Source of the DNA: Bacteroidales bacterium
GTDB taxonomy: Bacteria > Bacteroidota > Bacteroidia > Bacteroidales > VadinHA17
Assembly: GCA_012513795.1 (NCBI GenBank)
Contig: JAAZBN010000150.1
Location: 1 to 45,307 of the forward strand
Direction of reading: 5' to 3'
DNA length: 45,307 nucleotides
Shown here: piece after piece, positions 645 through 10,496 of the stretch
Position numbering within the stretch: position 1 is the stretch's first letter
Layout of the letters: each line of letters opens with the position of its first letter
Position numbers and translations under genes: made by a program
Notes under the pieces: generated by a model
Told to the model about the DNA's origin: nothing
The model's input: only the letters and a program-made list of their open reading frames with translations
Databases searched by the model: none

Positions 645-1391
645 TCAGAGCCTGTTAATCCTGCTTGCGGCAAAGCCTGCTCCGAATCCGTTGTCAATGT
701 TAACCACGGTCACTCCCGCGGCACAGCTGGTCATCATTGCCAGCAGGGCTGAGATGCCTTCAAATGATGCGCCGTAACCAACGCTGGTAGGAACGGCAAT
801 AACCGGCATATTGACGAGGCCGCCCACCACGCTGGCCAGTGCACCCTCCATGCCGGCAATCACAATTGAGATCCGGCAGGCACGTATCTCGGGCAGCTTG
901 TCAACCAGCCGGTGTATCCCGGCCACCCCGGCATCATATATCCTGACCACATCATTGCCCAGCAGTTCGGCAGTGACGGCCGCCTCCTCGGCAACGGGGA
1001 TATCTGAGGTGCCTGCCGTTATTACCGCTATCTTTGTGACCGGCGTCGGTATCTCCTTCTTTTTGATGCTTATGATACGCGCCGTCTCATAATAGACGGC
1101 ATCAGGGAAAGAGGGGACAATGAACCTGAACACCTCTTCCCGTGCCCTGGTACCTATAATATTATTGCCATTTTTCTCCATGGCGTTGAATATTGCCAGT
1201 ACCTGCCCGGGCGTCTTGCCTGCACAATATACTATCTCAGGATAGCCCGTTCTCAGTTCACGATGATGATCAATACGGGCAAAACCGAGATCAGTATAGG
1301 GGAAGTCGCGAAGCTTCTCCATGGCCTCATCCACACTCACCGATCCGTTCCTGATACCGTTAAGTATCTTCTCAAGCTCTGATGCATTCAT
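645..1391 (-). CDS. larB: LarB, pyridinium-3,5-biscarboxylic acid mononucleotide synthase
   Basis: LarB carboxylates and hydrolyses nicotinic acid adenine dinucleotide, the first step in making the nickel-pincer nucleotide cofactor. The protein has 248 residues, normal for the family. The N-terminal third carries FARIDHHRELRTGYPEIVYC, a strong LarB marker. The C-terminal half (about 118-248) is a PurE-like AIR-carboxylase fold with VITAGTSDIPVAEEA and VIAGMEGALASVVGGL, and ends in the typical NIDNGFGAGF stretch. Its ATG (1391-1389) overlaps the larE TGA (1390-1388) as ATGA, indicating translational coupling. Gene order on this strand is larC-larE-larB. Lactate racemase (larA) is not in the window. 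Confidence 0.95.
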   Translation of the reverse strand: MNASELEKILNGIRNGSVSVDEAMEKLRDFPYTDLGFARIDHHRELRTGYPEIVYCAGKTPGQVLAIFNAMEKNGNNIIGTRAREEVFRFIVPSFPDAVYYETARIISIKKKEIPTPVTKIAVITAGTSDIPVAEEAAVTAELLGNDVVRIYDAGVAGIHRLVDKLPEIRACRISIVIAGMEGALASVVGGLVNMPVIAVPTSVGYGASFEGISALLAMMTSCAAGVTVVNIDNGFGAGFAASRINRL

Positions 1392-2191
1392 GCCTCTTCT
1401 GTTTTGTTCATGCTTCCGCTGCGGTACCCCTCAGCATCAATTGTAATATATTGGAATCCCAGCCCCCGCAGGGCCTTTGTCAGTTTCATCCTGACCTCAC
1501 TGAGGGCTATCAGTTCAAACTGCTCACTCCTTATCTCAATCCTGGCCAGTTCACCATGGATCCTTACCCGTGCCCCTGTGAACCCGGCTTCTGTTACAAT
1601 GCTTTCAGCCTCTTCAATCCTGCGGAGGTTCTCCGGGTTGATTGTCATGCCATGCGGAAAACGCGTCAATAGGCAGGTGTTGGAAGGCCTGTCACTAAAC
1701 TCCAGGCCTGCCTCGCGGGCCAGGTACCTTATCTCCTCTTTTGTGAGGCCTGTTTCTGCCAGCGGACTCCTGACACCTGACTCACGGAGTGCCTTGAGAC
1801 CGGGACGATATTCCTTCAGATCGTCGGCATTTGTGCCGTCAAAGACAACCATGTAATTCCCTGTCCGGGCTTCGGAGGTAATAAGTTTCATAATCTCTCT
1901 CTTACAGAGATAGCAGCGGTCAGGAGGATTGGACATAACGGACAGGGGGATACCCGCAATTAATTCCTTATGCCTTACTCCGACCTCATTGCAGAAGCTG
2001 GCGGCATCCCTTACTTCAGAGGAGAACATGTATGGAGTACTTACGGTAACAGCCAGCAGACGCAGACCCGGCTGTGATGCGGCCACACTAACAAGAAAGG
2101 TGCTGTCAGTGCCGCCTGAAAGGGCAATGACCGCTGAGCCTGACTCCGCAAGGATGGCTTTCAGATCTTCCAGCTTCTTCGCAGCACTCAT
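1388..2191 (-). CDS. larE: LarE, pyridinium-3,5-bisthiocarboxylic acid mononucleotide synthase (sulfur transferase)
   Basis: LarE adenylates the two carboxylates of the LarB product and replaces them with thiocarboxylates. The reading frame is open further upstream, but I place the start at the ATG at 2191-2189. It overlaps the larC stop as ATGA and gives 267 residues beginning MSAAKKLEDLK; the longer version would begin inside larC. The PP-loop SGGTDS is at residues 25-30. A CYLC pair follows at 93-96 and a conserved Cys in NTCLLTRFPHG at 173. By family knowledge, the equivalent Cys in Lactobacillus LarE is the sacrificial sulfur donor, while some other LarE proteins use an Fe-S cluster for catalytic sulfur transfer. 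Which mode applies here cannot be read from the sequence alone. Confidence 0.93.
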   Translation of the reverse strand: MSAAKKLEDLKAILAESGSAVIALSGGTDSTFLVSVAASQPGLRLLAVTVSTPYMFSSEVRDAASFCNEVGVRHKELIAGIPLSVMSNPPDRCYLCKREIMKLITSEARTGNYMVVFDGTNADDLKEYRPGLKALRESGVRSPLAETGLTKEEIRYLAREAGLEFSDRPSNTCLLTRFPHGMTINPENLRRIEEAESIVTEAGFTGARVRIHGELARIEIRSEQFELIALSEVRMKLTKALRGLGFQYITIDAEGYRSGSMNKTEEA

Positions 2192-3480
2192 TTTATCCCG
2201 CTGATCTGTGCTGTTATCTCCTGAACTACCTGCTTCATGGGCAGTCCTGTGGCTGCCGCAATAGCGGCACATCTGTCAGCCTCCGGTTTAACGGAGACCA
2301 GTTGGTCATTGAAGTATGACTTTTTCACCATGACCTTCCCGAAACGGGTCTCAATCTCTTCGAACTCACGGTGCAGAGTCTCCTTGGCACAGGGAATAAC
2401 CCTCAGGCCAATGGTTGTTGACTCAGTAAACAGAATCATTCTTATGGCATCTACATGCTCTGCCTCACATATGACACTCAGGGTCAGGGCCGGCCTTCCC
2501 TTCTTCATAATGACAGGAGTAATCCAGACATCGCCGGCTCCTGCCTCAAAAAGCCTACGTGTAAGATACTCCGACAGTTCCGGATTCATATCATCCATGT
2601 TGCATTCGATCAGCCGTGCCTCGTGGCCATGTTCAGGCTCCCCGGGTATCTCAGCCAGGTATACCCTCAGCATGTTGGGACGAGCAGGATTGTTCTTCTG
2701 TCCTATGCCATAACCGCATTTTCTGATTATAAACCTCATTTCAGGGGGAAGAGGCTCAGCCGTGGCAGCTATTATTGCTGCTCCCGTGGGAGTGGTCGCT
2801 TCGAAATGAACTCCCCCGGTGTGGACCGGGAAACCACTGATTATCCGTGCCGTAGCCGGGGCCGGAACGGGAAGCAGACCATGCTGGCATCTTACCATAC
2901 CGCTACCCAGCTCAATGGTTGAGGCATATACCCTGTCAACGCCAAGATCATGAAGACAGATGGCAGCTCCCACTATGTCAACAATTGAATCCAGCGCACC
3001 CACTTCATGAAAATGAATCTCGTCAATCGGTTTATCATGTACGGCAGCCTCAGCCGCGGCAATATGACTGAATATCTTCATTGAGAGGGTCCTGACAGGA
3101 TCAGGAAGAGTGCTATTATTTATAATTCTTTCAATATCAGCAAGGTTACGATGGGGGTGATGATGTGTATGCTCGTGTGCATGATCATGGGTGTGTCCGT
3201 GATCGTGCTCATGTCCTTGATCCTGCCCATGAGTGGGATCATGGTCATGTTGATGATCTGTGTCAGGTAGGTGAGAATGCTCCCCTTCAGTAATTACTGT
3301 GACCTTTGTTCCGGTAATGCCATGGCGCTGGTCACGCGTTATCTCAAGCCTCCATCCTTCAGTTTTGAGCTTCTCCAGACCGCTGATAAGCGTATCAGTG
3401 CTAACCCCCAGGTCAAGCATCGCTCCGAGGTTCATATCTCCACTGATACCGGAAAAACAGTCATAGTAAAGTATCTTCAT
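2188..3480 (-). CDS. larC: LarC, nickel insertion protein (CTP-dependent cyclometallase), single reading frame
   Basis: LarC inserts nickel into the bisthiocarboxylated pyridinium nucleotide, completing the nickel-pincer cofactor. The 430-residue protein begins MKILYYDCFSGISGDMNLGA, the family signature. It carries HFHEVGALDSIVDIVGAA and TPTGAAIIA in the middle and the ECNMDDMNPE motif in the C-terminal part. Residues 68-110 form a linker with 18 histidines in 43 residues, a probable nickel-holding segment. In Lactobacillus plantarum larC is split and joined by a programmed frameshift; here it is one continuous frame. It is the first gene of the minus-strand lar operon, 154 bp from the divergent DUF362 gene. 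I found no clear promoter on its side of that gap. Confidence 0.95.
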   Translation of the reverse strand: MKILYYDCFSGISGDMNLGAMLDLGVSTDTLISGLEKLKTEGWRLEITRDQRHGITGTKVTVITEGEHSHLPDTDHQHDHDPTHGQDQGHEHDHGHTHDHAHEHTHHHPHRNLADIERIINNSTLPDPVRTLSMKIFSHIAAAEAAVHDKPIDEIHFHEVGALDSIVDIVGAAICLHDLGVDRVYASTIELGSGMVRCQHGLLPVPAPATARIISGFPVHTGGVHFEATTPTGAAIIAATAEPLPPEMRFIIRKCGYGIGQKNNPARPNMLRVYLAEIPGEPEHGHEARLIECNMDDMNPELSEYLTRRLFEAGAGDVWITPVIMKKGRPALTLSVICEAEHVDAIRMILFTESTTIGLRVIPCAKETLHREFEEIETRFGKVMVKKSYFNDQLVSVKPEADRCAAIAAATGLPMKQVVQEITAQISGIK

Positions 3481-3634: not shown

Positions 3635-4561
3635 ATGAAAAGAAGACTTTTCTTAAGGAATTCGCTTGGCGCCGGGCTGGCGGCAGGAGCGTTCATGAGT
3701 TTTGGCAGGGTTGAAAAGGCATTTGCAGGCAAACCTCTCCCTGCAGCAGCCAATTATGATCTTATAGCTGTAATGGGCGGTGAGCCAGCTGCAATGTTTG
3801 ACATGGGAATACAGACAATGGGAGGCATGGGCACCTTTGTCAGAAAAGGACAGAAGGTTCTGGTAAAACCCAATATAGGATGGGATGTTGTACCCGAGAA
3901 GGGCGGCAATACCAATCCGGCACTCGTCAAAAGGATCATTGAACACTGCTACCGGGCGGGGGCAAAAGAGGTTTATGTCTTTGACAATACATGTGATAAC
4001 TGGATAAAGTGCTACAAGAATTCAGGCATTGAGCAGGCAGTTAAGGACGCCGGTGCGAAGATAGTTCCGGGAAGTTCCGAGAGCTACTATCAGGAGGTTA
4101 CCATACCCAACGGCAAGAAGCTGACAAAAACCAAGGTGCACGAGCTGGTGCTTGAGAGCGATGTTTTTATCAATGTTCCCATTCTGAAGCATCACAGTTC
4201 TGCCAGGATGACCGGGGCGCTCAAGAATATGATGGGGGTAGTATGGGACAGGGGTTACTGGCACAGGAACAACCTCAACCAGTGCATTGCTGATTATGCT
4301 CTCTTTCCCAAAAAACCGCAGCTCAATGTCATGGATGCCTATAATGTGATGATGCGTAACGGTCCGCGTGGCGTCTCCGTGGCTGACCTTTCCAATATGA
4401 AATCACTGATGATCTCCACTGACTGGGTGGCCATTGATGCTGCAGGGGCAAAAATGATGGGCCGTGAGCCGGAAACAATTGAACATATAGCACTGGCAGC
4501 CGGAATGGGAATTGGTAAGATGGACCTGTCAGGCCTGAACATTCACAGGTTGAAAATGTAA
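3635..4561 (+). CDS. DUF362 domain protein with Tat signal peptide
   Basis: The 308-residue protein starts MKRRLFLRNSLGAGLAAGAF, a twin-arginine signal (RRLFLR plus a hydrophobic, Ala/Gly-rich stretch, probable cleavage after AFA near residue 31), so it should be exported folded. The mature part is a DUF362 domain: VLVKPNIGWDVVPEKGGNTNP near 75-95, then FINVPILKHH and LKNMMG, and VAIDAAGAKMMG near 276. Many DUF362 proteins occur beside or fused to 4Fe-4S ferredoxin domains. Here the next gene, 6 bp downstream, is a polyferredoxin, so the two probably form a redox unit at the membrane. No cofactor-binding cysteine motif is visible in this protein. The substrate and reaction are unknown. Confidence 0.88.
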   Translation: MKRRLFLRNSLGAGLAAGAFMSFGRVEKAFAGKPLPAAANYDLIAVMGGEPAAMFDMGIQTMGGMGTFVRKGQKVLVKPNIGWDVVPEKGGNTNPALVKRIIEHCYRAGAKEVYVFDNTCDNWIKCYKNSGIEQAVKDAGAKIVPGSSESYYQEVTIPNGKKLTKTKVHELVLESDVFINVPILKHHSSARMTGALKNMMGVVWDRGYWHRNNLNQCIADYALFPKKPQLNVMDAYNVMMRNGPRGVSVADLSNMKSLMISTDWVAIDAAGAKMMGREPETIEHIALAAGMGIGKMDLSGLNIHRLKM

Positions 4562-4567
4562 TATTTA

Positions 4568-6130
4568 ATGAAATCCTCTGCCCTGAGACATATAAGGACC
4601 GTTTTTGCACTCCTCGTCCTTGTTCTTTTTGCATTTCTGTTCCTTGACTTCAGGGGCTTGCTGGGGGAGGAGACCTTTGGTCCGATAACATACCTGCAGT
4701 TCCTGCCATCCCTGGTAAAATTCATCATCGCCGGAGCCACTGCCGCAACGGGCTTCATTGTGGTACTGGCACTGACTCTTCTGACCGGCAGAACCTATTG
4801 CTCATTCCTTTGCCCCCTGGGGATTCTGCAGGATGTCATCAGCAGAATCGGCGGATTTGTCAAAAGACGCTTTCGCAGATATGGCTATAAGAAACCCTAC
4901 ACCATACTCCGTTATTTCATTCTTGTGGTGACAGCGGGCATACTGGCCCTGGGAGGTATTTACGTCCTTACCATTCTTGATCCATACAGCATCTTTGGCA
5001 GGTTCATGTCATACTTTGTCCAGCCGGTGGTTCTCCTCCTGAACAACCTGCTGGCATCACTCCTCGGCAGGTTTGACATCTATTCCATTTACCATGTTGA
5101 TATCAAGCCTTATCAGCTTGCAGCATATATTGTTCCTTCAGCTTTTCTGCTGCTGGTGGGAATACTCTCCTTCAGTCACGGCAGGCTCTATTGCAACACT
5201 GTATGCCCCGTTGGGACGCTCCTTGGCCTGTTGAGCAAGGTGTCACTCTTCCGCATCAGGTTTGATGAAGACAAGTGCACCCGCTGCGGCAGGTGTGCCA
5301 TGGCATGCAAATCATCCTGCATAGACTTCCTTAACAAGAACGTCGACCTTAGCAGATGCGTAAGCTGTTTCAACTGTATTGATGCCTGCAAGGAGAATGC
5401 AATGTCTTACGGTCTTGTCAGGCTGAAGCAAAAGGAGCTCAGTAATGATGATGCAGATTCCTCGCGCCGCGGGTTCATTGCCGGCTCACTGTTACTTCTT
5501 GCCGGAGGCTCCCGGCTGATGCGGGCTCAGGGCACAACACCCGCACCCACTATTGAGTCAACTGTAAAGGAAGACAGGCTCTATCCCGTAACCCCTCCGG
5601 GGTCAGCAAGCATAGAGTCCTTCACTTCCAGGTGCACTGCATGCACACTATGCGTCAGCGCATGCCCCACAAACGTCCTTCAACCATCGGTGAGTGAGTA
5701 CGGATTCGCGGGTATCATGCAGCCCCGGATGGATTTTCACAGCGGCTTCTGCAATTATGACTGCACCCGGTGCACCGATGTGTGCCCGACAGGCGCCATC
5801 ATGCCCCTGATGATCGAGGCCAAGAAACTGACCCAGATCGGTAAAGCGGTCTTCATTCGGGAGAACTGCATTGTCCATACCGAGAAGACAGCCTGTGGTG
5901 CCTGCTCGGAACATTGCCCCACCAAGGCATGTCACATGGTTCCCTATGAAAATGGTCTCCTCATACCTGAAGTAAGGGACGAGATATGCATTGGTTGCGG
6001 TGCATGTGAGTATGCCTGCCCCACGAAACCCTACAAGGCCATCTTCGTTGACGGTAATCCCATTCATGAGGCAGCCGCCAAACCAGAGACGGAAGAGCTG
6101 GATGCAATACCTTCCGATTTCCCCTTCTGA
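4568..6130 (+). CDS. Membrane polyferredoxin, NapH-like module fused to NapG-like module
   Basis: 520 residues in two halves. The N-terminal half has about four to five membrane segments with the NapH/NosR-type CSFLCP (78-83) and CNTVCP (209-214) motifs, then two 4Fe-4S sites (CTRCGRCAMAC at 237-247 and CVSCFNCIDAC at 264-274). Residues 299-320 read SRRGFIAGSLLLLAGG and onward, a twin-arginine motif with a hydrophobic run, exactly where a separate NapG-like protein would start. The C-terminal half has four more cysteine clusters (CTACTLCVSAC 356-366, CNYDCTRCTDVC 395-406, CGACSEHC 443-450, CIGCGACEYAC 474-484). By analogy with NapGH, it should carry electrons between the quinone pool and an extracytoplasmic partner, perhaps the DUF362 protein encoded just upstream. 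The partner is inferred, not shown. Confidence 0.88.
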   Translation: MKSSALRHIRTVFALLVLVLFAFLFLDFRGLLGEETFGPITYLQFLPSLVKFIIAGATAATGFIVVLALTLLTGRTYCSFLCPLGILQDVISRIGGFVKRRFRRYGYKKPYTILRYFILVVTAGILALGGIYVLTILDPYSIFGRFMSYFVQPVVLLLNNLLASLLGRFDIYSIYHVDIKPYQLAAYIVPSAFLLLVGILSFSHGRLYCNTVCPVGTLLGLLSKVSLFRIRFDEDKCTRCGRCAMACKSSCIDFLNKNVDLSRCVSCFNCIDACKENAMSYGLVRLKQKELSNDDADSSRRGFIAGSLLLLAGGSRLMRAQGTTPAPTIESTVKEDRLYPVTPPGSASIESFTSRCTACTLCVSACPTNVLQPSVSEYGFAGIMQPRMDFHSGFCNYDCTRCTDVCPTGAIMPLMIEAKKLTQIGKAVFIRENCIVHTEKTACGACSEHCPTKACHMVPYENGLLIPEVRDEICIGCGACEYACPTKPYKAIFVDGNPIHEAAAKPETEELDAIPSDFPF

Positions 6131-6223: not shown

Positions 6224-6646
6224 ATGAAACCTACACATATTGAACATATTGGTATTGCGGTTAGCTCAATAGCCGAGGCGCTGCCCTTCTATGAAAAGGT
6301 TTTGGGCCTGAAATGCTACAATATTGAGGAGGTGGCTGACCAGAAGGTTAAGACCGCTTTTTTTATGATCGGTCAGACCAAGATCGAGTTGCTGGAGTCG
6401 ACCGATCCGGAAGGACCGGTGGGCAAGTTCATAGAAAAGAGGGGAGAAGGCATACACCATATTGCCTTTGCGGTGGATAACCTTGAGGAGAGACTGCGCG
6501 AGGCCGAGGCTGCAGGGATACGTCTTATAGACTCAACTCCCAGGAAGGGCGCCGAAGGACTGAGCATAGCATTCATGCATCCCAGGTCAACTTTCGGGGT
6601 GCTAACCGAACTATGCGAGGACAAGAATAGCGAAAACAAAAAATAA
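6224..6646 (+). CDS. mce: Methylmalonyl-CoA epimerase (VOC fold)
   Basis: Interconverts the (R) and (S) forms of methylmalonyl-CoA, linking methylmalonyl-CoA mutase to the decarboxylase encoded next. The 140-residue protein has the duplicated vicinal-oxygen-chelate pattern: IEHIGIAVSSI at the N-terminus, IHHIAFAVDNLEE in the middle and GVLTELCE at the end. Metal ligands expected for the family are visible as His8, a Gln in ADQKVKTA, the His pair of IHHIAF and Glu near 131. It is the first gene of a tight operon; mmdA starts 9 bp after its stop. The 93-bp upstream gap contains TTAACTTGCA near 6178, a weak -7-like sequence. Mutase genes are not in the window. Confidence 0.95.
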   Translation: MKPTHIEHIGIAVSSIAEALPFYEKVLGLKCYNIEEVADQKVKTAFFMIGQTKIELLESTDPEGPVGKFIEKRGEGIHHIAFAVDNLEERLREAEAAGIRLIDSTPRKGAEGLSIAFMHPRSTFGVLTELCEDKNSENKK

Positions 6647-6655
6647 AAAGGCTAA

Positions 6656-8215
6656 ATGAACAGTCAGGAAAGAATCAAACAGCTCCTTGATTACAGGGAG
6701 AAAGCACGCAAGGGTGGTGGTGAAAAACGAATTGACGACCAGCACGCCAAGGGTAAACTGACGGCAAGAGAACGCATTACACTTTTGCTTGACGAGGGCA
6801 GCTTTGAAGAGTATGACATGTTTGTCACCCACAGGACGGAGGACTTCGGCCTGGCCGACAAGAAATTCCTCTCTGACGGAGTGATCACGGGTCATGGCAC
6901 TATTGACGGCAGGGTGGTCTACGTCTTTGCTCAGGATTTTACTGTTTTTGGCGGCTCTTTGTCGGAAACATTTGCACAGAAAATATGCAAGATCATGGAC
7001 CAGGCCATGAAGGCCGGCGCCCCTGTCATAGGCATAAATGACTCCGGTGGAGCCCGCATCCAGGAGGGAGTGAGAAGTCTTGCCGGATATGCTGAGATCT
7101 TTGAACGAAATATCCTTGCTTCCGGCGTAATTCCACAGATTTCAGCCATATTCGGACCCTGCGCCGGAGGAGCTGTCTATTCACCTGCACTGACAGACTA
7201 TATCATCATGAGCCGCAAGAGCAGCTACATGTTCGTTACCGGTCCCAAAGTGGCAAAGGCAGTTACCGGCGAAGATATCACCATTGATGATCTTGGCGGA
7301 GCAGGCGTCCATACAACCAAGTCAGGAGTGGCACACTTTGCCGTTGATGAGGAGAAGGAGGGTCTTGACCTTATCAGGAAACTGCTGGGATTCATGCCTC
7401 AGAATAACCTCGAGGAACCACCCCAGGTGGATTGTGATGACCCGATAGACAGGCTGGAGGATGACCTCAATGACATTATCCCGGAAAGCCCCAACCAGCC
7501 CTATGATGTCAAGGATGTAATAGTAAGGGTGGTTGACTACCATGATTTCCTGGAGGTTCATGAGGCCTATGCAAAGAATATTGTGGTAGGATTCGCCAGA
7601 TTTGACGGTATGCCAGTCGGGATAGTAGCCAACCAGCCGGCATACCTCGCGGGAGTGCTTGACATAGAAGCTTCAAGAAAAGCTGCCCGGTTCATTCGCT
7701 TCTGCGATGCATTCAATATCCCGATTGTCACCTTCGTTGACGTTCCTGGCTTCCTGCCCGGATCAACACAGGAGTACGGCGGCATAATCATTCATGGGGC
7801 CAAACTGATGTTTGCCTACGGCGAAGCAAACGTGCCAAAAGTGACTGTCACCCTACGCAAATCTTACGGAGGCGCCCACTGTGTCATGTCGTCCAAGCAA
7901 CTCAGGGGCGATATTAACTATGCATGGCCCACAGCAGAAATTGCAGTAATGGGTCCGCAGGGAGCCATTGAGGTGCTGGAGGGGAGAACAATCAGCGAGA
8001 TAGCTGACCCTGCCGAACGCAAGGAGTACATAGCCAAAAAGGAACAGGAATACCGCGATAAGTTCGCAAATCCTTATGAGGCAGCCAGGTATGGCTATCT
8101 TGATGATGTTATTGAACCCCGGAATACCCGGTTCAGGGTTATAAGGGCTCTCAGGACCCTCGCTACCAAGAAGGATCCGGGACCCATGAAGAAACATGGT
8201 AACATTCCACTCTGA
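6656..8215 (+). CDS. mmdA: Methylmalonyl-CoA decarboxylase carboxyltransferase (alpha) subunit
   Basis: 519 residues with the acyl-CoA carboxyltransferase fold in two crotonase halves. Markers are LTARERI near 36-42, [25 protein letters not shown] and [16 protein letters not shown] in the first half, and [21 protein letters not shown] and [12 protein letters not shown] in the second. It transfers the carboxyl group of (S)-methylmalonyl-CoA to carrier-bound biotin. The same family serves propionyl-CoA carboxylase. Here the neighbours are an OadG-like subunit, a biotin carrier and the OadB-like sodium pump, and no biotin carboxylase is present, so the decarboxylating, sodium-pumping complex is much more likely. 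It is not an OadA-type oxaloacetate decarboxylase alpha subunit, which would have a TIM-barrel fold. Confidence 0.94.
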
Positions 8216-8221
8216 TAATAA

Positions 8222-8596
8222 ATGACAATGATGCAAACACTGTTACTTGCCGGGGCTGCAGAAAGCCTCGATCCGCTCGCCTGGACCATTGTCGTGGTGG
8301 GCGTAGGTATAGTATTCCTTTCTCTGCTGATTGTCTATATCTTCTTCAGGTACATCCTGACCTTCATACTGAATTTTAAGCTGAAGAGTTTTGCCCGCAA
8401 AAAAGGAATTGATCCGGCCGAAGCACTTACAGCAAAGACAATCCAGTCAGGAGAGGTTAACGCAGCAATAGCCATGGCACTCTACCGGTATTTCAATGAG
8501 CTTCATGACGTTGAAAGCGGCGTTATCACAATCAAGCGCGTCTCCAGACACTACTCACCATGGAGCTCCAAACTCTACAACATGAACAACCTGTAA
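8222..8596 (+). CDS. OadG-like small membrane subunit of the sodium-pump decarboxylase
   Basis: The 124-residue protein has one strong N-terminal membrane helix (about 22-47, AWTIVVVGVGIVFLSLLIVY) followed by a charged cytoplasmic tail ending in a VSRHYSPWSSK segment. In oxaloacetate and methylmalonyl-CoA decarboxylases the gamma/delta subunit of this type holds the carboxyltransferase on the membrane pump. It lies 6 bp after mmdA and before the biotin carrier, as expected for that role. Sequence is weakly conserved in this family, so the assignment rests on topology and position. An ATG at the third codon is an alternative start. Confidence 0.85.
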   Translation: MTMMQTLLLAGAAESLDPLAWTIVVVGVGIVFLSLLIVYIFFRYILTFILNFKLKSFARKKGIDPAEALTAKTIQSGEVNAAIAMALYRYFNELHDVESGVITIKRVSRHYSPWSSKLYNMNNL

Positions 8597-8614
8597 GATC
8601 AGAAAAATCTGTAA

Positions 8615-8713
8615 ATGAAAATTAATCCGCATGATCAGGAGCTCAGAAAAAATCTGTTTCAGTATCATGCATATTCCATCCGACCAATAAAATCAATATT
8701 CATAACCGAATGA
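8615..8713 (+). CDS. Possible 32-residue small ORF between OadG-like and biotin carrier genes
   Basis: An ATG at 8615 opens a frame of 32 codons ending in a TGA at 8711-8713. That TGA overlaps the ATG of the biotin carrier gene (8710-8712) as ATGA, the coupling arrangement used repeatedly in this window. The peptide is basic and hydrophobic at its end (IRPIKSIFITE) and matches no family I recognise. It fills an otherwise unexplained 113-bp gap inside a tight operon. It may equally be chance; no ribosome-binding signal is evident. Confidence 0.25.
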   Translation: MKINPHDQELRKNLFQYHAYSIRPIKSIFITE

Positions 8714-9141
8714 AAAGCTACAAATTCAGGATAAACGGAAACCAGTACGAGGTTGAAGTTCTCGAAGTCGACGGTAACGTGGCCAGGATAGAGGTTAACG
8801 GCACCGTGTATGATGTTGAGATGCAGCGCGAGATACCCAAGGTTAAAACCGTGGTCACTGCAGCTCCTGCCCAGGCAAAACAGGTAAGGGAAACCAGACC
8901 TGCCCCGGCAAAGGATCCTTCAGGCAAGCCTTCCGATGTCAGGGCACCTCTGCCGGGTGTCATTATCCAGGTCCTTGTCAGACCGGGCGACGAGGTGAAT
9001 GCCGGCCAGACAGTCTGTACCCTCGAGACAATGAAAATGGAAAATGCCATTAAGGCAGAGAGTGCAGGAAAGGTCACAGCTGTAAATATCACTCCCGGGC
9101 AGTCTGTCCTTCAGGATGAGGTTCTAATTGTAATCGGTTAG
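8710..9141 (+). CDS. mmdC: Biotin carboxyl carrier protein of the methylmalonyl-CoA decarboxylase
   Basis: 143 residues. The N-terminal part (1-45) is the small folded leader usual in these carriers, residues 46-75 are a flexible Ala/Pro-rich linker, and 76-143 are the biotinyl domain beginning VRAPLPGVI. The biotin-accepting Lys109 lies in the canonical ETMKMEN. The carrier shuttles the carboxyl group from MmdA to the membrane pump OadB, where decarboxylation is coupled to sodium export. The stop codon TAG (9139-9141) nearly touches the downstream ATG at 9144. The gene symbol follows the role; the family is certain, the exact letter is conventional. Confidence 0.93.
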   Translation: MKSYKFRINGNQYEVEVLEVDGNVARIEVNGTVYDVEMQREIPKVKTVVTAAPAQAKQVRETRPAPAKDPSGKPSDVRAPLPGVIIQVLVRPGDEVNAGQTVCTLETMKMENAIKAESAGKVTAVNITPGQSVLQDEVLIVIG

Positions 9142-9143
9142 TG

Positions 9144-10496
9144 ATGGCAAAGAGAAAGACATGGACCATGCTGGCTCTGCTGGTGATAACCTCGCTGGCA
9201 TGGCTGGCATTCGTCAAGCCTGAACATGACAGGCAGAAGGCACAGGCAGAATCAGGAATTGAAATCAGTGCTGCACTTCCCCAGTATCAGCCTGATAACC
9301 AGCCGGAAGAGGGATTTCTGGAAGGTCTGAAGCAGTTCTGGGCTTTCACCGGGTTCCGTAATGTGACCTCAGGTCACCTGATAATGATCATGGTAGGTCT
9401 GATCTTTATCTTCCTGGCCATAAGATATGAATATGAACCTTTGCTGCTGATACCCATAGGCACAGGAATTCTTATCGGAAATATCCCCCTCTTTACTGAT
9501 GGCGGGATGAACCTCCAGGTGGGCATCTACCAGCAGGGAAGCGTATTGAACTACCTCTACTTCGGGGTACTCAAGGGGGTATATCCACCACTTATCTTCC
9601 TGGGCATAGGAGCAATGACCGACTTTTCCTCACTCATATCCAATCCCAGGCTGCTTCTGCTCGGAGCTGCCGCACAGATGGGGATATTCATCACATTCAT
9701 CGGAGCTCTTCTCCTGGGATTCGCACCTCCTGAAGCAGGAGCAATTGGTATAATCGGAGGAGCTGACGGCCCGACAGCCATCTTTATCTCATCCAGGCTG
9801 GCCAATGGCATGAACCTGCTGGCTGACGGCACCCCGGTGAAGAACCTTATAGGCCCTATCGCCATCGCGGCTTACTCCTACATGGCTCTCGTGCCCGTCA
9901 TTCAGCCTCCTATCATGAGACTGCTCACCAACAAGAAGGAGAGGCTGATCCGTATGAAACCGCCCCGCGCTGTCACCAAGACAGAAAAGATCCTGTTTCC
10001 TATTTTCGGACTGCTGCTGACCTGCTTTATCTCACCAAGCGCGTTGCCTCTTCTGGGTATGCTCTTCTTCGGAAACATACTAAAGGAATCGGGCGTCACA
10101 AAGAGACTGGCAGAGACAGCACGCACATCCTTGATAGACATAGTTACAATAATGATAGGCCTTACTGTTGGCGCTTCAACCCAGGCTGACGTATTCCTGA
10201 CAAAGGAGTCAATCCTGATATTTGCACTGGGTGCAACGGCATTCGCCATAGCAACCTCCTCAGGAGTACTGTTTGCCAAGACGATGAACCTTTTCCTGCC
10301 AGAAGGAAACAAGATCAACCCTCTTATCGGCAACTCGGGAGTCTCAGCCGTGCCTGACAGTGCACGGGTATCTGAGGTGGAAGGCCTCAAGGCCGATAAG
10401 ACAAACCATCTGCTGATGCATGCCATGGGTCCGAATGTAGCAGGTGTGATTGGTTCAGCCATTGCGGCGGGGATACTGCTAAGCTATCTGGGATAA
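9144..10496 (+). CDS. mmdB: Sodium-translocating decarboxylase beta subunit (OadB/MmdB family)
   Basis: 450 residues from the ATG at 9144; a GTG at 9141 is an alternative start. After an N-terminal membrane segment and a polar stretch to about residue 75, the protein has the multi-helix pump core. Key motifs are FLGIGAMTDFS near 152-162 and GGADGPTAIF near 205-214, whose Asp208 corresponds to the sodium- and proton-handling aspartate of OadB. A second conserved stretch, LIGNSGVSAVPDSARV, follows in the C-terminal third. It decarboxylates carboxybiotin and exports sodium, conserving the energy of methylmalonyl-CoA decarboxylation. It is followed 41 bp later by citrate lyase genes. Confidence 0.95.
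   Translation: MAKRKTWTMLALLVITSLAWLAFVKPEHDRQKAQAESGIEISAALPQYQPDNQPEEGFLEGLKQFWAFTGFRNVTSGHLIMIMVGLIFIFLAIRYEYEPLLLIPIGTGILIGNIPLFTDGGMNLQVGIYQQGSVLNYLYFGVLKGVYPPLIFLGIGAMTDFSSLISNPRLLLLGAAAQMGIFITFIGALLLGFAPPEAGAIGIIGGADGPTAIFISSRLANGMNLLADGTPVKNLIGPIAIAAYSYMALVPVIQPPIMRLLTNKKERLIRMKPPRAVTKTEKILFPIFGLLLTCFISPSALPLLGMLFFGNILKESGVTKRLAETARTSLIDIVTIMIGLTVGASTQADVFLTKESILIFALGATAFAIATSSGVLFAKTMNLFLPEGNKINPLIGNSGVSAVPDSARVSEVEGLKADKTNHLLMHAMGPNVAGVIGSAIAAGILLSYLG

Follow-up and report, generated by a model that had tools for sequence, protein, structure and literature searches.

Can one redox polypeptide be inserted into the membrane by Sec, have its folded ferredoxin domain exported by Tat, and then remain in one piece? 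The question is raised by a gene in the window, by which we mean the whole 45,307-nucleotide stretch of Bacteroidales DNA analysed here. The open frame at 4568-6130 (+) has an ATG start and encodes 520 aa (57 kDa). A preliminary description had read its product as a NapH-NapG fusion, a reading borne out both by the NapH/MauN, NapF, NapG and MauM/NapG profiles, which match the fitting halves of the protein (all below their curated cut-offs), and by the published description of a relative. The two cytoplasmic-type 4Fe-4S sites that it had placed in the N-terminal half were recovered as ferredoxin-type groups (C237-C251 and C264-C274), in addition to two CX3CP pairs (C78/C82 and C209/C213). The twin-arginine motif and hydrophobic run that it had located at residues 299-315 (5462-5512) correspond to SRRGF at 5462-5476 and an uncharged run of 14 residues reaching 5512, and the second set of four cysteine clusters that it had announced beyond the arginines is likewise there (C356-C484), as groups C356-366, C395-406, C434-450 and C474-484. 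The same description overlooked a candidate cleavage site where the signal ends, as well as an upstream gene for a DUF362 protein with a Tat signal, which ends 6 bp before the fusion gene. The features of this region are as follows.

3635..4561, + strand: upstream DUF362 protein, 308 aa, with the N-terminal Tat-type signal MKRRLFLR (ORF, domain, alignment)
4568..6130, + strand: whole gene, 520-aa NapH-NapG-type fusion, a polytopic polyferredoxin or PFD (ORF and domain matches)
4589..4645, + strand: hydrophobic segment 1, residues 8-26, predicted N-in from the basic N-terminus (flat hydrophobicity scale)
4724..4780, + strand: hydrophobic segment 2, residues 53-71 (flat hydrophobicity scale)
4799..4816, + strand: CX3CP motif 1, C78-P83, predicted on the cytoplasmic side (sequence, alignment, Fer4_5 match to residues 58-102)
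4919..4975, + strand: hydrophobic segment 3, residues 118-136 (flat hydrophobicity scale)
5117..5173, + strand: hydrophobic segment 4, residues 184-202 (flat hydrophobicity scale)
5192..5209, + strand: CX3CP motif 2, C209-P214 (sequence, alignment)
5276..5389, + strand: ferredoxin-type region C237-C274 with two 4Fe-4S motifs, predicted cytoplasmic (domain matches, alignment)
5462..5476, + strand: internal twin-arginine motif S299-R300-R301-G302-F303 (sequence, alignments)
5471..5512, + strand: short uncharged h-region of the internal Tat signal, G302-S315 (sequence, hydrophobicity scale)
5513..5530, + strand: basic c-region R316-A320 and a possible signal peptidase I site of the Q-rule type, A320|Q321 (site counts)
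5528..6127, + strand: predicted exported NapG-like domain, Q321-F520, in which four cysteine groups lie between C356 and C484 (domain matches, alignment)

Topology was predicted from a simple hydrophobicity measure, in which segments were scored as 19-mers on a flat scale, lower values being more hydrophobic. The four strong segments score between -1.4 and 0.5, and the Tat h-region, at 6.36, is far weaker. A fifth stretch, residues 149-167, is about as weak as the Tat region, which it just exceeds in hydrophobicity with a score of 5.96; four strong segments and this weak one precede R300 on the simple scale, and the number of helices before the Tat motif would be odd if 149-167 spanned the membrane.

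The preliminary description took this protein to be unusual, a view that does not stand, since the family is already known: according to the accessible passages of Tooke et al. 2017, 'polytopic polyferredoxins' were found through a screen for internal twin-arginine motifs and are fusions of NapH with NapG (PMC5449189). In those passages, reporter fusions indicate that the MLMS-1 PFD (Q1NSB0) requires Sec and then Tat, exchange of RR for KK abolished export, and the Tat-dependent helix has low hydrophobicity; excerpts of a later review restate the dual targeting (PMC9360617). As far as Q1NSB0 is described there (PMC5449189), the window fusion shares with it an N-in orientation, four Sec helices and cytoplasmic Fe-S motifs (all predicted in our protein), as well as the twin-arginine pair before a weak last helix, the basic residues and the four C-terminal clusters. 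In the window fusion the twin-arginine pair stands directly before the final hydrophobic segment, that segment is weakly hydrophobic and followed by the positive charges R316 and R319, and Fe-S motifs in the polytopic half are accompanied by four C-terminal clusters. Whereas the PFD species named in the accessible text are non-Bacteroidetes (PMC5449189), the window fusion is from Bacteroidales, the label that its nearest relatives in our genome scan also carry.

Each half of the fusion also resembles NapH or NapG of periplasmic nitrate reduction in its cysteine layout, but those proteins are encoded by separate genes, and the fusion scores below their curated cut-offs (TIGR02163, 87.8 against 213.05; NF007012, 55.1 against 269). 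All 25 NCBIfam profiles shown, including those for NapH and NapG, scored under their cut-offs, and 'NapH-like' and 'NapG-like' are therefore descriptions here rather than orthologue names. A PDB sequence search returned ferredoxins, polyferredoxins and other Fe-S proteins, with no chain named as NapH-NapG-like. From its architecture and the NapH/NapG profiles, we assign the protein as a putative Bacteroidales member of the PFDs. A role in periplasmic nitrate reduction like that of NapGH would agree with NapH, NapG and NapF being the closest named profiles, but we give it almost no credence, as no shown profile reached its curated cut-off, the neighbouring gene encodes a DUF362 protein, NapA was not found over cut-off in the organism's own genome (88% complete), and no nap genes were seen among the fusion neighbours examined.

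To what extent the arginine pair is conserved was read from a scan of one genome per species, which yielded 42 loci; 38 matches were long enough and, together with the window, made 39 rows. R301 is present in all 39 (RR in 28, KR in 11), and in a 30-row alignment R301 and F303 are invariant, adjoining a poorly conserved linker; by these alignments, the [KR]R pair is conserved beyond chance. The cluster cysteines are kept in every row that covers them (37 to 39 of 39), with only C455 varying (20/39). Conservation of the pair, on which the preliminary description had made its reading depend, therefore holds for the second arginine throughout the 39 rows, but not for the first: in a larger set, 50 of the 89 Bacteroidota sequences have RR and 39 have KR, a departure from the MLMS-1 PFD, and RR is found in all 32 from Verrucomicrobiota, the phylum of an Opitutales relative. 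The site search applied to this larger set picks the best [KR]R close to the aligned position, so that its presence in every one of the 89 and 32 sequences is partly by construction, whereas the 39-row and 30-row counts are alignment-based. The accessible text of PMC5449189 describes no test of a KR variant. TatC is encoded in the organism's own genome. Of 25 further genomes selected among the 42 loci, 23 of them holding a PFD, 24 encode it as well (the TatC miss, G064, is an Opitutales draft genome), including those of all 11 KR members of the 39-row alignment. TATFind demands RR, and an RR-demanding screen of this kind would miss the KR members of the family.

For the DUF362 protein, an alignment of 18 rows, of which one is missing the N-terminus, shows conservation of at least 90% at R3, R4 and F6. 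Among loci with enough flank, 63 of the 84 in Bacteroidota and all 31 in Verrucomicrobiota have a DUF362 gene upstream of the fusion and on its strand. In its place, directly upstream of the fusion, 14 of those 84 Bacteroidota loci carry tatC, 13 being labelled Prevotella, Xylanibacter or Prevotellaceae and one (L033) Bacteroidales, and an aldo/keto reductase-ferredoxin gene follows the fusion at 20 loci, of 86 with enough flank. The neighbourhood survey contained no locus at which DUF362 occurs together with either tatC or the reductase-ferredoxin, and two loci (L120 and L093) at which DUF362, tatC and the reductase are all absent. A row of tatC, fusion and aldo/keto reductase-ferredoxin was observed in 14 loci (L029:5226-8902, L028, L030-L040 and L042); two of the reductases were read, those of L029 and L033, and each has a lipobox in addition to a twin-arginine signal at its N-terminus, the L029 domains being confirmed. 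This row seems to be a Tat locus carrying its own substrates. At the window locus, the DUF362 protein is probably the redox partner of the fusion, and the steady pairing with such proteins fits an electron route from menaquinol to the periplasm, the direction and chemistry of which would follow NapGH as discussed in the accessible part of PMC5449189. AlphaFold2 models of the fusion and of the DUF362 protein had mean pLDDT values of 42.2 and 48.5, both too low for use.

Further genes flank the pair. Divergent from the DUF362 gene, at 645-3480 (-), lie larB-like, larE-like and larC genes for nickel-pincer cofactor synthesis; LarC was confirmed by Pfam, and larB and larE are names that we assume from this gene set. 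In the phylum sample LarC is associated with the fusion, being over its cut-off in 11 of the 30 PFD-bearing genomes as compared to 9 of 266 others. A lar match was found at 18 of the 67 Bacteroidota loci that have 2.4 kb or more of upstream sequence; 14 of these 18 are close relatives, and the others are L082, L085, L090 and L097. At L097, larC, larE and larB matches come after a split fusion on the same strand. That the DUF362 protein is an exported nickel-pincer (LarA-like) enzyme was considered and rejected as a general explanation: 19 of the 30 PFD genomes are without LarC, and a Lar_N match on another contig of the organism's own genome was counted against it. In the lineages that have both LarC and the fusion, it may hold. 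Downstream of the fusion, the genes at 6224-10496 (+) keep their order in close relatives and include a glyoxalase-type Pfam match; they presumably resemble a set of methylmalonyl-CoA epimerase and sodium-pumping decarboxylase.

Were the C-terminal ferredoxin domain cytoplasmic, the RR pair would be an ordinary positive-inside signal. The topology of the window fusion is a prediction, 149-167 may form an extra helix and many relatives have KR, all of which would suit such an arrangement; we nonetheless regard it as very unlikely, given the invariance of R301 and F303 in 30 rows, the retention of TatC, the 14 loci with tatC directly upstream of the fusion, the Tat signal encoded by the adjoining DUF362 gene, cleavage-site signatures on the far side of the helix (see below), and the Tat export of the tested MLMS-1 relative in the accessible text of PMC5449189. 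Sec followed by Tat on one polypeptide, as the preliminary description had proposed, is supported by the sequence and by the same architecture having been tested in Q1NSB0, and we consider it highly likely that the fusion is a dual Sec/Tat-targeted PFD, whether cut or uncut. Excerpts of PMC7317946 describe a parallel in the actinobacterial polytopic Rieske protein Sco2149, which likewise uses Sec for its first helices and Tat for the last helix and cofactor domain, but whose cofactor domain is unrelated to that of the fusion and whose last helix is retained. As dual Sec/Tat assembly is established in a relative, the window fusion as first described only adds a member to the family.

Whether the fusion stays intact is a separate matter. 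The residues after its h-region are R-L-M-R-A-Q, placing A320|Q321 at the end of the signal with M318 at -3, so that the Q-rule feature of a small residue at -1 and Q at +1 after the h-region is present. As stated in accessible passages of PMC5837995 and PMC10653852, most signal peptidase I substrates of Bacteroidetes expose a +1 glutamine that is then cyclised, and the share of such substrates is ~71% across the phylum. We counted the pattern [AVILMSTGC]-x-[ASG]|Q with the Q lying 14 to 27 residues beyond the first member of the [KR]R pair. Identical proteins were taken out beforehand, and four sequences were dropped: L078 (a partial copy of the window gene), L096 (an N-terminal half at a contig end), L097.2 (the NapH half of a split pair) and L025 (Balneolales, in neither group). 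In the class of this Balneolales relative, 3 of 146 genomes, that relative included, had a match at E <= 1e-60, and it was not used as a control. For Verrucomicrobiota, 194 genomes were searched and 80 had a match; the best 30 loci were read together with L023 and L041, a selection that biases this group to close relatives.

The [ASG]|Q site, found in the window fusion, occurs in 69 of 89 Bacteroidota PFDs, as compared to an average of 12.2 and a maximum of 23 over 1000 shuffles of the same residues. In Verrucomicrobiota the count is 2 of 32 (shuffle mean 3.2). The sequences share descent, and clustering lessens the effect of kinship without removing it: the site is present in 36 of 56 Bacteroidota clusters at 70% identity (shuffle mean 6.6, maximum 15) and 19 of 34 at 55% (shuffle mean 4.3, maximum 11), and in 1 of 20 and 1 of 17 Verrucomicrobiota clusters respectively. 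Following such a triplet, Q stands at +1 in 36 of 56 clusters, as compared to between 2 and 6 clusters for each of N, E, D, K and R. For T, A, G, I, V and L the numbers are 11 to 23, occurrences taken to lie mostly inside the h-region. At the place of the Q site 12 of the 32 Verrucomicrobiota fusions carry a lipobox, for example ALSGC, where shuffling gives 1.1 on average and 5 at most. By clusters this amounts to 3 of 20 at 70%, a number attained by 3 of 2000 shuffles, and to 2 of 17 at 55%. Both the Q site and the lipobox set these fusions apart from the MLMS-1 PFD. The internal-lipobox fusions are L132, L134, L135, L137-L141, L143, L145, L146 and L156; 19 of the 32 have neither signature, one sequence being counted under both (2 + 12 + 19 for 32). 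The internal signal of the Bacteroidota fusion L120, whose neighbours include no DUF362, tatC or reductase gene, ends in the near-lipobox LNSC. At the split locus L097:4471-6049, the NapH-like and NapG-like halves are two overlapping ORFs, the second of which begins MDKSRREAIKK, so that the internal signal can stand alone, though the split could be a frameshift.

A further explanation for these counts, that the Q site is a mere mark of Q-rule genomes, was rejected: [ASG]|Q was found in 34 of 64 crude N-terminal signals from 10 genomes whose PFD lacks the site, and in 41 of 66 from 11 genomes chosen as site-bearing, one of which (G272, L107) is actually without the site. The Q site is hence not automatic in genomes with Q-rule signals, and in the site-less lineages the helix is probably retained uncut. 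The signal detector is crude, and some membrane anchors and lipoproteins passed it. Applied to 12 loci of the window and its close relatives, it gave [ASG]|Q in 1 of 11 signals (of the 6 examples shown, 4 are copies of the 9141-10496 gene), and for Verrucomicrobiota in 0 of 13. Another crude scan, covering the window together with nine loci of its own genome, listed 12 candidates; the majority are not signals for signal peptidase I, and two have the sequence G|Q or A|Q. The Tat signal of the upstream DUF362 protein departs from the Q-rule.

These signatures bear on two readings that differ solely in the cleavage step. In one, the last helix remains uncut as a membrane anchor, as in the MLMS-1 PFD and the polytopic Rieske proteins, and A|Q is incidental or marks the end of the helix. 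We give this a little less than an even chance. It accords with the published schemes, which in their accessible passages show the last helix inserted and retained (PMC5449189, PMC7317946, PMC9360617), with the 20 of 89 Bacteroidota PFDs that have no Q site and the 19 Verrucomicrobiota with neither signature, and with a hydrophobic span that does not separate the groups with and without the site (medians 14 and 15). The -3 residue of the window also speaks for it. Methionine is unusual at this position for signal peptidase I, and the 36 site-bearing cluster representatives mainly have L (10), A (9), S (6), I (4), G (3) or V (3). Harder to reconcile with an uncut anchor are the preference for Q over N, E, D, K and R at +1, the lipobox in 3 of 20 Verrucomicrobiota clusters at a frequency rarely reached by shuffling, and an uncharged span of 14 residues, which is short for a membrane anchor; a helix that always stays whole would not easily account for two known types of cleavage signature in a single place.

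In the other reading, the internal signal terminates in what resembles a signal peptidase site and the fusion may be cut after Tat export, which, judging from the sequence, may leave one half in the membrane and yield a ferredoxin that is released or anchored by a lipid. For cleavage at A320|Q321 alone we put the chances at even. Cleavage is considered lineage-specific, and we are evenly divided over whether many Bacteroidota and some Verrucomicrobiota fusions are polyproteins cut at the Tat signal by signal peptidase I or II. On that reading, for which the balance is just as even, signal peptidase I would leave an N-terminal Gln that becomes pyroglutamate and signal peptidase II a lipoprotein, and a single gene would provide equal amounts of a quinol oxidase in the membrane and of a ferredoxin exported as a separate protein, an outcome to which we give one chance in two. 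A precedent for a divided redox polypeptide is the FbcH cytochrome b/c1 precursor of Bradyrhizobium, which signal peptidase cuts at an internal signal; it is exported by Sec and yields haem proteins, in contrast to the Tat export, Fe-S clusters and inferred cleavage of the fusion.

Taken together, we propose that Sec would insert the four N-terminal helices of the fusion in an N-in orientation, leaving the CX3CP and the two ferredoxin motifs facing the cytoplasm. The last hydrophobic stretch would be too weak for Sec to keep, and the RR motif would pass it to Tat, which would export the C-terminal ferredoxin domain pre-folded with its four 4Fe-4S clusters. Signal peptidase I may then cut at A320|Q321 and part the halves, as it may in many Bacteroidota relatives. 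Electrons would probably be taken from menaquinol by the NapH-like half, handed to the NapG-like half in the periplasm and passed to the upstream Tat-signal DUF362 protein. Anatomy, conservation, gene context, presence of TatC and a non-random site signature were computed for the window fusion itself; its dependence on Sec and Tat is drawn by analogy from the experiment with its relative, in the part of PMC5449189 accessible, and its partner is inferred.

With the dual-targeted PFD itself already known, the possible new element is internal signal-peptide cleavage, of which we found no description in our searches of open-licence PMC papers. If the fusion is cut, a fragment of ~22 kDa (21.6 kDa from Q321) would offer a simple assay for the handover from Sec to Tat in Bacteroidota, and predictors limited to protein N-termini would miss internal signal-peptide sites of this kind. 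No Tat case is known to us where export of a folded domain is followed by the splitting of the multispanning precursor, and if cut, the fusion would, to our knowledge, be the first.
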